Below are positions 45,459 to 50,379 of a stretch of 64,000 bases of DNA, piece after piece. Under the pieces are notes generated by a model, which was given only the letters and a program-made list of their open reading frames with translations, was not told the DNA's origin and made no database searches. Origin of the DNA: Halorhabdus tiamatea SARL4B (GTDB taxonomy: Archaea; Halobacteriota; Halobacteria; Halobacteriales; Haloarculaceae); contig NC_021921.1 in assembly GCF_000470655.1 (NCBI RefSeq), positions 248,001 to 312,000 of the forward strand, in the 5' to 3' direction. A program made the position numbers and the translations under genes. Position 1 is the stretch's first letter; the number at the start of each line of letters is the position of its first letter.

Positions 45459-45568
45459 ATACGGACAGTTGTAATTCGTTACCGCCCTGGGGATACCAGA
45501 TGACGGGGTTCGAGGGGCGATCGGACGAGTATTCCATACATGCCGAAAATAGTTACAACTGTCCGTAT
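45459..45568. repeat. 110-bp inverted-repeat element, MITE-like candidate
   Basis: ATACGGACAGTTGTAA (45459-45474) is repeated as a perfect 16-bp inverted copy at 45553-45568, with 78 bp between. It fills the gap between convergent hisD and the rhodopsin gene, and its last base is part of the rhodopsin stop codon. No coding capacity and no clear target duplication are visible. It could be a non-autonomous element, or a bidirectional terminator or mRNA-protecting stem. Confidence 0.6.
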
Positions 45569-46284
45569 CAGTCTTCGACGGCGTCGTAACCGGTCGCGTC
45601 GGTGACGTCGAACGTCTCGAGGGTCTGCAGGCCGTTGAGTGCGATCAGGCCGAAGCCGACCTTGGCGACGACGTCGATGTACGTAATGACCAGCGACGCG
45701 GTCTCGTTGTCCATGAATCCGTAGCCAGTCGGGGCGAGCAGCCAGATCACCGGGTAGACGAGCCAGAGGACGATCACGAAGTTCCGGAGTTTCCGGTAGA
45801 GCCCCGCAGTCACGTCGTCGCGCGCCCGGGCGCTCTCGTTGGCCTCGATCACGAGCAGATAGACGACGCCGGCAAACGCCAGGCTCCCCGCGAGGAAGAA
45901 CAGTTCTTTCAGCGGGGTCGCCAGCAGGGCACCGACGAATCCCAGAACGATCGTCGCCGCCTGGAGGCCGGCGGCCTTCGCGATGAGGCGTCGCCCGGCA
46001 CCGGCGATCAGAGCGATGAAGACGACGTGCAGGGGCGTCGTCAACAGCCAGTCGACGTATCGCGGGACGAAGATGGCTGCGCCGGTCGCGGTCGTGATCT
46101 CGCCGATCCCCAGCGCCATGAGTCCGTACGCGACCGTCGCGATCAGCGTCACCACGACGACGTCGGCGTACTCGCGGTGTCGATCACTCGACAGCGTGAG
46201 GAACCCGTAGGACAGGCCGACGCTGCCGAGCGCCATGCCGATCGTCCCGAGCGTGAACCACAACGTGATGTCGATCGCGATCAT
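45568..46284 (-). CDS. sop2: Sensory rhodopsin II-like retinal protein
   Basis: The 238-residue seven-helix protein has helix [16 protein letters not shown] with the counterion Asp78 and Phe89 at the proton-donor position, which marks a sensory type rather than a proton pump. Retinal binds Lys208 in [11 protein letters not shown]. Numbering runs three above Natronomonas SRII throughout: Tyr177 and Tyr202 match its Tyr174 and Tyr199. Two departures stand out: Ala207 where SRII has the signalling Thr204, and His86 at the bacteriorhodopsin Leu93 (proteorhodopsin 105) tuning site. It overlaps the htrII stop by 4 bp, so the two are cotranscribed. Confidence 0.88.
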
Positions 46285-48560
46285 CCGGAATCACCCCGTG
46301 AAACCGCGCCAGTGGCCCCGTCCGTCGTCGATCGGCCGACCTCGAAACGGTCGAGCAGCGCCTGGAGCTCTTCGGCCCGATCGAGGAGGTCCCCGGCCGA
46401 AGTCGTCACTTCAGTGATCGAGTCGGTCTGTTCGTCGGCCGCGGTGGCGACCGTATCAGCCTCGGTGACGGTCTGCTGGCTGATCGCCGTCAAGTCGTCG
46501 ACCATCGCCATGACTTGCTGGGCTGTCTCGGCTTGATCGCCCGTCGCGGCGTCGATCTCCTGGATCCCCCGGTCGGCCGCTTCGGCGCGCTCGACGATCG
46601 TCTCGAGGGAGTCGACTGCCTCGGTCACCGTCTCGACGCCCTCGTCCATCCGCTCGCTCGTGGTCTCCATGGTTTCGACGGTCTCGCCGGCCTGCTCCTG
46701 GACGCGTTCGATCCGGGCCTCGATGTCGCCCGCGGCCTCCTTGGTCTCCTCGGCGAGGTTCTTGACCTCGTCGGCGACCACGGCAAAGCCCTCCCCGCCG
46801 TCGGAGTGGGCGGCCTCGATCGAGGCGTTGATCGCGAGCATGTTGGTCTGTTCGACGATCTCGGTGATGACGTCGACGATCTCGCCGATCTCGTCTAAGT
46901 CCGAATCGAGTTCGTTGATCGCCTGCCGGGTTCGTTCGGTCTCTGCTTCGATTTCGTGCATCTCTTCGATGGCGTCCTCGGCGGCTCGACGGCCGGTCTC
47001 GCCGACTTCGGCGGCCTGCTGGGAGGTCTCGGCGACCTCCTGGGCCGAACTGGCGACCTCCTCGGCAGAGGCCGACAGCGTCTCCATCTCGGCGGCGATG
47101 TCCTGGAGCCGTTCGCTCTGCTCGCTCGCGCCGTCGAAGATCTCGTCGATGGACTGACTGACTTGCCGGCTGGCCTCACCGACGCGGTCGGCGTTCCGTC
47201 GGACAGTGTCGCTCGACTCTGAGACCGCCGTGGCGAAGGCCTCGACGTCGGCGACAGTCGCCTCCAGGGCCTCGAGGGCGGCGTTGAGTTCCTCGCCGAC
47301 GGTCCGCATCGCGTCGTTGTCGCTCTCGGGATCGACCCGCTGGGTCAGGTCGCCGTCGGCGACTCGGTCGAGAACCTCGCCGTAGGCCGTCGCTTTCGCT
47401 TCTAGGTCGGCGGAGAGTGCTTCCATCTCGGCGCGTTCCCGCTCGGCTTCCTCACGGGCCGCCTCTGCTTCTTCCTGGGCCGTTTCGGCCTCGTCGATCG
47501 ACTCTCGCAGTGAGTCGCGCATCTCCGCGAAGGAGCGATACAGCGTCCCGATCTCGTCGTCACGCTGGGTCGTGAGGTCGACCTCGAGGTCGCCCGCGCC
47601 CATCTCACTCGCTCGGTTCGTGAGCCGACGCAGCGAGAGTGCAGTGTTCGACCCGATGGTGACGCCGATCAACCCGAGGTTGATGATCGCCAGCAACACC
47701 AGTCCGAGGAGGTCGGAGTTGATCTGGGCCGAGAAGCCGTAGGCCGACGCGGCCGACTGCTGGGTCAACACCGTCCAGTCGTGAGAATCCATCCCCGAGA
47801 CGCCCATGACGGTGTCTCCCTGCCGGAGGAACGTTCCGTTCGCGACGGTCGAATTGATTACATTCCCCTCGTAAGACTCGAGGATCTTGCTCGCGTTCGG
47901 GTGGGCGACGTACTGCCCGTTACCGTCGACGACCACGGTCGACATCTCCCCGCTCGTCGAGAGTGTTGCTGCCCGGGACTCCAGATCGACCATGTAGACC
48001 AGCGCCCGGTCCTCGGCCCCCTCGACCGGCGACAGCACAGCCACGATCGGATGCTCGACGATCGGCACCGAGAACGGTTGGGAGATGTAGACGTCGTCCG
48101 GGCCGTCGAAGGCGGGTGGATCAGTCGCAAACGCTGCGCCCTGTTCGGCCGGGTTGACCCCGACCATGGCGTCGTTCGAACTGCGCAGAAACTGCATGTC
48201 GGCCGTGTCGAGGTAGTGGACGGCAACGACTGCCTCGGGTACCTCGTCGTCCGTGACCATCGCGGTGAGCTGTCGATCTATCTGATCGACGTCACCCGAC
48301 GCGAACACCGAGAGCTTCGAGGTCGTTCGGACGTCACCCTCGACTGCTGAGAGCCACGTTTCCAAGTGATCGGCTTGGGCGTTCGCCTGCCCGGTCAGGT
48401 CGTCCGCGACGTCAGCTCTGAGTTCACTAGTCGTTTGCGCGCTGATGACGCCGCCGAAGACCAACATCACTACCACCGCGAACGCAAGGGCGATCCCGAG
48501 CCGTGCAGTGTAGCGCTCGCGCACGAACGACGGGACGATTGCGCTACGTCTCTCTGACAT
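46281..48560 (-). CDS. htr2: HtrII-like phototaxis transducer
   Basis: The 759-residue protein from the ATG at 48560 ([12 protein letters not shown]) has TM1 near residues 20-45 and an extracellular Cache-like domain to about residue 275. TM2 contains [13 protein letters not shown], whose Asn matches the rhodopsin-contacting Asn74 of Natronomonas HtrII. Two HAMP domains follow, then the methyl-accepting coiled coil with the tip sequence [22 protein letters not shown], which relays to CheA/CheW. The large extracellular domain, as in Halobacterium HtrII, suggests added chemosensing. An IS lies 54 bp upstream of the start. Confidence 0.9.
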
Positions 48561-48603
48561 TGTGTAACGCGACGGATCGGATCGCCGTAAATGGTCACTC
48601 CCC

Positions 48604-48613
48604 ATTTTCAACC
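48604..48613 (+). repeat. 10-bp target duplication of the IS50-like element, left copy
   Basis: ATTTTCAACC precedes the element and recurs at 50276-50285 immediately after it. Confidence 0.9.
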
Positions 48614-50275
48614 CTGTCTCTTACCCACAAGTCCTAATCGAGGAGCTGACGAACCAAGACTGGTAGATGGGACGCCGCTCACGGAGTTGGAAGCCAGAAC
48701 TCGATGAGGATGGACAGCTGTGTGACATGGATGTTTCCGGGTGGATTCGAGCGGAGTTTCGGTCAGCTGAGTTTGGAGACAAGCGCCTGACTGACCGATT
48801 GGTTCAACTTGGGGATGAACTCGGCAGCTCACCTGCCGAGTCCATCCCCGCTGCCTGCGGAGACTGGGCCTCCACAAAAGCTACATACCGATTTTGCGAT
48901 AATGACAGTGTGGACCCCAACGAGGTTCTCTCTGCTCACAAGCAGCAACAGCAATCAAGAGTGAGTCGGTCAGACGAACTCTTGATTGTCTCCGATACCA
49001 CCGAACTCGTGTTTCCGAGACATCCCTCCAAAGAGGGCCTCGGCGACATTGGCAATTCTGAAATGGATCTCGAAGGCGTCAAGCTACACTCCACGATCGG
49101 AATCAATCCACGCACCCATCGGATGACTGGAGTCATCGATCAGCAGGCGCTGATCGAGGACCAGCAGGCTGGTGAGAAGTACGATGCCAACGGCAAAGCA
49201 GAGCCGATTCAACTTGACAATGAGCATGAGAAGTGGAGCCGTGGCGACAGGCAAGCCAGAGACTGGCTTGCCGACGATATCCGCCCGCTGTTCATTCATG
49301 ACCGAGGCGCAGATTCATTCGCGTTCTACGAAGAAGTCACCGGAGAGATGGAAAGTGCTGGCTTTATCGTCCGAGCGAATCAAAACCGGCGGATTTGGAC
49401 TGATGATGGTGAACCTGAAAAACTCTTTGACTGGAGCAGCGACCTTGCCGAGCAAGGTCGCAAAACAATCGAGATTCAACAGGGAGGTGGGCGCGAAGCG
49501 AGAACGGTGGAGTTGTCGATAGCCACTGGAACGTGTGAGTTGCGCGCACCAAGGAATAATCCTGAGCAAGAGGGTTCAATCGAGGCGAATGTCGTGAGAG
49601 TCGACGAGGTCGGTGAAAATGACGACCCGATTCAGTGGGTGTTGCTCACCACTGAATCGGTCGAAGAGTTTGAAGAGACACTGACACTCATCGACTATTA
49701 CGGCCTCCGCTGGCGAATTGAAGACTGGCATAAAGTGCTCAAGAGTGGCTGTAACATCGAAGAACGGCAACTGCAGACTTGGGAGCGGATGGAAGTTCTG
49801 TTGAGCATGTATTCAGTAATCGCGTGGAAAGTTCTGGAGTTACGAGAACTTGCCCGTGGTGATAGTTCAGTATCTCCGGCGGTCCTGCTGAGTGAGGCAG
49901 AGTGCACAATTCTGGAAACGAAATTTCCAGAATTGAGCGACCAAGATGGAAAATCATACGCAGTGAGCGTCGCTAAACTCGGCGGTTATCTTGATCGTGG
50001 TTCAGATCCGCCACCAGGGTGGGAGACGATGTGGAAAGGACTCCAGAAGCTACGCATGTGGGCTGAAGGATACGAACTCGGTGCTGAATGAGCGCGCTTC
50101 GCGGCTCATTCAGCGGAACCCGTCGAAATAACGAGTTCAACTGAGCTTTTCACGCGGCTTCATCGAGACCTCTCTAATCTTGGGCAGATACTGATAGAGA
50201 TTTGATTGATTTCTTCTTCTCATGCCTGATCTGGTTGAACTTACGCTATAGTATCGAGTTATGGGTAAGAGACAG
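48614..50275 (+). mobile_element. Complete IS4-family element, IS50-like subgroup
   Basis: The 1662-bp element ends in 14-bp inverted repeats CTGTCTCTTACCCA, strongly recalling the IS50/Tn5 end (CTGTCTCTTATAC). It is flanked by 10-bp direct repeats and carries one intact transposase. Its GC content is visibly lower than that of the surrounding genes. It sits in the intergenic region between the htrII-rhodopsin operon and the divergent pseudokinase gene. Confidence 0.93.
48667..50091 (+). CDS. IS4-family transposase (IS50/Tn5-like)
   Basis: The 474-residue transposase has the IS50-type N-terminus (WIRAEFRSAEFGDKRLTDRL, then ACGDWASTKATYRF). Catalytic Asp residues are in LLIVSDTTELVF and LFIHDRGADSFAFYE, and the 'Y-x2-R-x3-E-x6-K' motif is complete in YGLRWRIEDWHKVLK. 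It is full length and probably functional. Amino acid and codon use are less acidic and less GC-rich than the host genes. Confidence 0.93.
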   Translation: MGRRSRSWKPELDEDGQLCDMDVSGWIRAEFRSAEFGDKRLTDRLVQLGDELGSSPAESIPAACGDWASTKATYRFCDNDSVDPNEVLSAHKQQQQSRVSRSDELLIVSDTTELVFPRHPSKEGLGDIGNSEMDLEGVKLHSTIGINPRTHRMTGVIDQQALIEDQQAGEKYDANGKAEPIQLDNEHEKWSRGDRQARDWLADDIRPLFIHDRGADSFAFYEEVTGEMESAGFIVRANQNRRIWTDDGEPEKLFDWSSDLAEQGRKTIEIQQGGGREARTVELSIATGTCELRAPRNNPEQEGSIEANVVRVDEVGENDDPIQWVLLTTESVEEFEETLTLIDYYGLRWRIEDWHKVLKSGCNIEERQLQTWERMEVLLSMYSVIAWKVLELRELARGDSSVSPAVLLSEAECTILETKFPELSDQDGKSYAVSVAKLGGYLDRGSDPPPGWETMWKGLQKLRMWAEGYELGAE

Positions 50276-50379
50276 ATTTTCAACCCTGATAACCCGACGG
50301 GAAGGGATCGGCCGAACGTGTGATTGAAGCAACCGTTATCCTGTGCTTTGACGTGTCAGTGACGCGTAGTCGTCCAACA

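Follow-up and report, generated by a model that had tools for sequence, protein, structure and literature searches.

A sensory rhodopsin II of Halorhabdus tiamatea with histidine and alanine at two colour-switch positions of the retinal pocket

Three hydrogen-bonding residues, foremost among them Thr204, underpin the model that explains how a pump fold was converted to a sensor. In the sensory rhodopsin II of Natronomonas pharaonis (NpSRII) the side chain of Thr204 makes bonds to Tyr174 and to two carbonyls of helix G, and it is credited with making this helix stiffer and the signalling state longer-lived (PMC11992208); mutation of either Thr204 or Tyr174 disrupts phototaxis (PMC3274258). A sequence-only reading of an opsin gene from Halorhabdus tiamatea SARL4B placed alanine at this site and histidine in the retinal pocket, which raises the question of whether the protein is a sensory rhodopsin II (SRII) that signals by another route or belongs to a distinct sensory class. 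The gene lies in a stretch of 64,000 nucleotides (the window; positions 248,001 to 312,000 of contig NC_021921.1), together with a likely partner:

45568..46284, minus strand: sopII-like gene, sensory rhodopsin II, 238 aa (Bac_rhodopsin Pfam match; best PDB match NpSRII; AlphaFold2 fold)
46281..48611, minus strand: htrII-like transducer gene, longest ORF 776 aa (HAMP and MCPsignal domains; NpHtrII match)

In the list of open reading frames of the window the opsin frame has an ATG start and reads from 46284 to 45568. Its product matches Pfam Bac_rhodopsin (7.7e-49), has NpSRII as its top PDB match (1e-42) and gives an AlphaFold2 model of mean pLDDT 92 that superposes on SRII/HtrII crystal structures with an rmsd of 1.1 Å; no NCBIfam model names it. 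Pfam match and fold, with K208 as the retinal lysine and D78 as the Asp counterion, define a seven-helix type 1 rhodopsin. In trees the opsin falls among the SRII lineages, together with the SRII of Haloarcula marismortui (HmSRII), and away from bacteriorhodopsin (BR) and SRM.

The adjacent transducer gene lies upstream, its end overlapping the opsin start by 4 bp. In its product Pfam identifies a HAMP domain as well as a complete signalling domain of the methyl-accepting type, and the transmembrane part matches the NpHtrII fragment of known structure (7e-24). Homologs begin near residue 18 of the longest frame, so the true start is likely the ATG at 48560. The contact pair Tyr199–Asn74 is present, as Y202 in the opsin and N311 in the transducer; Ser62 of NpHtrII corresponds to Ser299, and Glu43 is replaced by Gln59. 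At a further contact the receptor has Asp at 189 and the transducer Gln at 43; the corresponding residues of N. pharaonis are Thr and Glu, so that here the carboxylate is supplied by the receptor rather than by the transducer.

Three other identities were considered and rejected. The opsin is separate from the SRI group (L248, L244 and L246), and its transducer is long and of HtrII type. Published primers (PMC6145879) identify the relevant H. marismortui genes: two HmSRII primers match L068 with zero mismatches, and the SRM (SRIII) primers match L245, which is distant in trees; the window transducer, moreover, is full length. BR is excluded by Phe89 at the proton-donor site (BR Asp96), by the transducer gene and by the presence of the host's BR as a separate gene (L131).

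Placement, an HtrII-type partner and the contact residues all argue that the opsin, as judged from sequence and predicted fold, is a sensory rhodopsin II – the ortholog for its family, with a transducer of HtrII type as its partner – and not an SRI, an SRM or a new sensory class. The suggestion of a distinct class is therefore abandoned in favour of an SRII ortholog that sits beside HmSRII, while the description as an SRII-like protein is borne out by the PDB match, the trees and the partner. A hydroxyl at 204 bonded to Tyr174 is absent from the opsin (Ala207); this bond is a mechanism of NpSRII and no defining trait of the SRII class.

Alignment with NpSRII gives the residue pairs (query/NpSRII) R75/R72, D78/D75, T82/T79, H86/I83, F89/F86, Y177/Y174, D192/T189, Y202/Y199, D204/D201, A207/T204 and K208/K205. 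It reproduces the proposed matches at the counterion Asp78, Phe89, Tyr177, Tyr202 and Lys208, as well as Ala207 in place of Thr204 and His86 at the position of BR Leu93, a known colour switch (PMC8514524). The constant offset of three on which these had been based is correct after the B–C loop, but before the loop the offset is two. No gap falls near the 83 or 204 site and, given the close superposition of the model, the shifted alignment that had been considered as a possible refutation is very unlikely. Four codons are referred to below, where NpSRII numbering is used; the colour switches are those named 'L/Q' (helix C) and 'A/TS' (helix G) (PMC8514524).

46150..46152, minus strand: Val45 codon (NpSRII Ile43), third pocket position, Val in the His/Ala group and Ile in the Asn/Thr group
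46027..46029, minus strand: His86 codon (NpSRII Ile83, BR Leu93, proteorhodopsin 105), L/Q colour switch (alignment; PMC8514524)
45679..45681, minus strand: Tyr202 codon (NpSRII Tyr199, transducer contact), invariant in 66/66 of the clade
45664..45666, minus strand: Ala207 codon (NpSRII Thr204, BR Ala215), A/TS colour switch and signalling Thr (alignment; PMC8514524, PMC3274258, PMC11992208)

When 392 genomes of the order were searched, the closest orthologs turned up solely in the window's own family, and 66 non-identical members of this clade were tabulated. The clade is monophyletic (FastTree support 1.0; 92/88 in a careful tree, in which support at some deep nodes is moderate and the long SRI branch adjoins the clade). 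Position 83 is always polar (His in 38 members, Asn in 28); in other SRIIs the residue is Leu, Ile or Met. The combinations at 83/204 are His/Ala (32), His/Ser (6), Asn/Thr (27) and Asn/Ala (1): Thr204 accompanies His83 in 0/38 and Asn83 in 27/28 members, and Ala204 is found in 33 of the 66. His/Ala occurs in all seven Halorhabdus genomes, in Halapricum, in most Halosimplex and Halorientalis and in some Halovenus members; Asn/Thr is the state of Haloarcula, Halomicroarcula and Halomicrobium, the branch in which HmSRII sits, given its primer match to L068. Asp75, Tyr174, Tyr199, Asp201 and Lys205 are kept in all 66 receptors, and Asn74 in all clade transducers save one with Thr. Within Halorhabdus the opsin dN/dS is ∼0.05–0.20, indicative of purifying selection. 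With His in 38 and Ala in 33 members, and with the combination fixed in 7/7 Halorhabdus genomes at low dN/dS, neither chance nor sequencing error accounts for it. The His/Ala receptor is a variant within the known SRII class; a search of the open-access literature found no published measurement of one. Plasmid records that were searched held only distant rhodopsins.

Only four columns distinguish the His group from the Asn group without exception, and three of these (43, 83 and 204) line the retinal pocket, a post hoc enrichment (hypergeometric 0.002) that uses a pocket list drawn from BR. That the three differ together suggests a joint remodelling of the pocket, read post hoc from what is effectively one evolutionary event; the AU test of monophyly of the His group gave p 0.34. 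One receptor, L147 from Halorientalis marina, is the sole Asn83/Ala204 case seen, a natural intermediate between both pocket types. Receptor 189 and transducer 43 also vary across loci: the N. pharaonis group is mostly Thr–Glu, the clade has Asp (or Asn/Gln) with Gln, and L149, from a MAG, has Asn at receptor 189 with Glu at transducer 43.

Comparison with characterized systems places the query closest to HmSRII, which shares the clade, the polar 83, Thr108, Asp189 and Tyr199, and likewise has its HtrII (774 aa) encoded upstream; the two differ in the pocket (Asn83/Thr204/Ile43 in HmSRII, His83/Ala204/Val43 in the query) and are ∼52% identical. NpSRII/HtrII, at ∼40% identity, shares the fold, Asp75, Tyr174, Tyr199, Phe86 and transducer Asn74, but has Ile83, Thr204 and Thr189, and its transducer, of 534 aa as against 776 aa in the query, carries Glu43 and lacks a long extracellular domain. 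The Halobacterium salinarum pair (L118) has a long transducer homologous to the query's over nearly its full length, and its receptor, like the query, has no Thr at 204 (Ser is found there); unlike the query it has Ile83 and Gln189, and Ser at the transducer Asn74 site. SRI and H. marismortui SRM share Ala at 204 with the query, but are other lineages, with Phe or Tyr (SRI) or Val (SRM) at position 199; SRI transducers have no aligned extracellular part, and HtrM has no signalling domain (PMC6450946).

How general, then, is a hydroxyl at 204? Among 130 Htr-linked SRII-like receptors (transducer ORF adjacent upstream) the residue is Thr in 56, Ser in 34 – as in H. salinarum SRII – and Ala in 40. 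State changes were counted on a tree from which columns 83 and 204 had been left out: a single change accounts for the polar residue at 83, while the alternation of hydroxyl and Ala at 204 takes no fewer than nine among 84 SRII rows, and no fewer than five inside the clade. Halobaculum SRIIs combine Ala204 with Leu83, and the sampled SRIs all have Ala, in keeping with a review that already describes Thr204 as not conserved in SRIs (PMC3274258). An alignment and tree with SRI, SRII and Htr partners uphold Ala and His as real and show that Thr204 is not fixed among SRIIs. Interchange on this scale argues against the Thr204–Tyr174 bond as a general SRII feature; on the residue counts it is a trait of some SRIIs and not of the class, and the textbook Thr204 signalling step is probably not universal. 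No Ala-bearing SRII with a published phototaxis measurement was found in the open-access literature.

The host genome (3.15 Mb, two contigs) contains one other matching opsin, the bacteriorhodopsin L131, and encodes two retinal-forming enzymes of the Brp/Blh family, archaellins and CheA; the parts needed for phototaxis are therefore present. The explanation we favour, and consider fairly probable, is that SRII and HtrII form a functional pair for blue-light phototaxis in which the pocket exchange retunes absorption and photocycle, signalling persisting without the Thr204–Tyr174 bond. The receptor would act with the upstream-encoded transducer, its gene presumably co-transcribed with htrII, on the CheA/archaellum system. 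Both colour-switch positions (83 in helix C, 204 in helix G) would be reset – His83/Ala204 here as against Asn83/Thr204 in the Haloarcula branch, whose HmSRII absorbs at ∼486 nm with a photocycle of ∼2 s (PMC6145879) – so as to alter colour and photocycle speed and not to abolish signalling. The retinal 13-methyl would push Trp171 and helix F, and the conserved Tyr199–Asn74 contact would pass the signal to transducer helix TM2, with the hydrogen bond dispensed with. In its favour are the 4-bp gene overlap, the complete HAMP and signalling domains, purifying selection and clade-wide conservation; the query keeps Trp171, Tyr174 and Tyr199, and its transducer Asn74 and Ser62. With Ala at 204 the side-chain bond to Tyr174 cannot form. 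Against the proposal, loss of phototaxis in NpSRII Thr204 and Tyr174 mutants means that an Ala receptor might not signal, and the more than 100-fold faster photocycle of NpSRII bearing Thr204Ala combined with other mutations (PMC11992208) would imply a shorter signalling state.

A different possibility, doubtful though less so than the others we weighed, is that htrII-sopII is poorly expressed or silent in this strain, the pocket residues then being of consequence only in its relatives. It arises from an insertion in the upstream region:

48604..50285: insertion sequence (48614-50275) with inverted repeats and 10-bp target duplications ATTTTCAACC (48604-48613, 50276-50285)
48667-50091: transposase of the insertion sequence
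50276..50293, minus strand: displaced upstream motif GTTATCAGGGTTGAAAAT, once per Halorhabdus genome

The element, present in five identical copies in the genome and flanked by a perfect duplication, is a recent arrival. It lies ∼50 bp before the likely htrII start, between htrII and a conserved motif, GTTATCAN4TGARAAT, that has exactly one match in each of the seven Halorhabdus genomes, upstream of the htrII-sopII operon. In relatives the motif is directly upstream of htrII; in the window strain the intact copy is now separated from htrII by the insertion, at a distance of 1.7 kb. An N5-spaced version of the motif gave scattered matches, as against one per genome with N4; a sigma-70 promoter scan found none, but the sigma-70 model does not apply to archaea. 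By its position the insertion may alter htrII-sopII expression. Silencing is nonetheless opposed by the intactness of both frames, by retention of the sequence nearest the start and by conservation of His/Ala in relatives with an uninterrupted upstream region, and it can hold alongside the functional pair that we favour.

It is also conceivable, but unlikely, that His83 replaces the lost hydroxyl: it would join water, Trp171 and the helix G carbonyl in their network and so link the movement of the retinal to helices F and G, as a new form of the signalling relay. Position 83 flanks the C13 region of the retinal, and the exclusion of Thr204 from His83 receptors (0/38, as against 27/28 with Asn83), with 43 differing alongside, would fit such a relay. 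A water linking Trp171 to the residue-204 carbonyl is known from NpSRII (PMC11992208). The joint 83–204 change is, however, essentially one event on the tree, too few independent changes for an independent-pairs test, and the existence of Ala204 with Leu83 in Halobaculum and with Asn83 in Halorientalis marina means that Ala does not need His. We give only a slim chance to the fuller claim of a natural SRII lineage that signals without the Thr204–Tyr174 bond and in which His83, with the pocket water at Trp171, serves as a new coupling element; if true, this would be a second solution for converting a pump fold into a sensor. Least likely of all is a fast, pump-like photocycle in a receptor that signals weakly or attenuates other responses, like SRM in Haloarcula: Ala204 is the BR, SRI and SRM state and Thr204Ala plus other mutations accelerates NpSRII (PMC11992208), but HtrM is without a signalling domain (PMC6450946) where the window transducer is full length, and HmSRM is a distant lineage with Val199.

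Whichever account holds, there is a large natural set of receptor–transducer pairs with and without a 204 hydroxyl, from closely related genera and with few pocket differences, which makes the pump-to-sensor model directly testable with natural proteins; the clade also combines the two best-known colour switches in new ways.

Two further observations concern other opsin genes. The bacteriorhodopsin gene L131 lies ∼5 kb from a Brp/Blh-family gene (G000:C2:481445-487772), and the second Brp/Blh-family copy is at C2:1601099. Three SRII-like receptors with a transducer ORF upstream (L093, L102 and L117) have the counterion Asp75 replaced by Gln and Thr79 by Ala, and also carry Ala204; in H. salinarum SRII, mutants with a neutral counterion are constitutively active.
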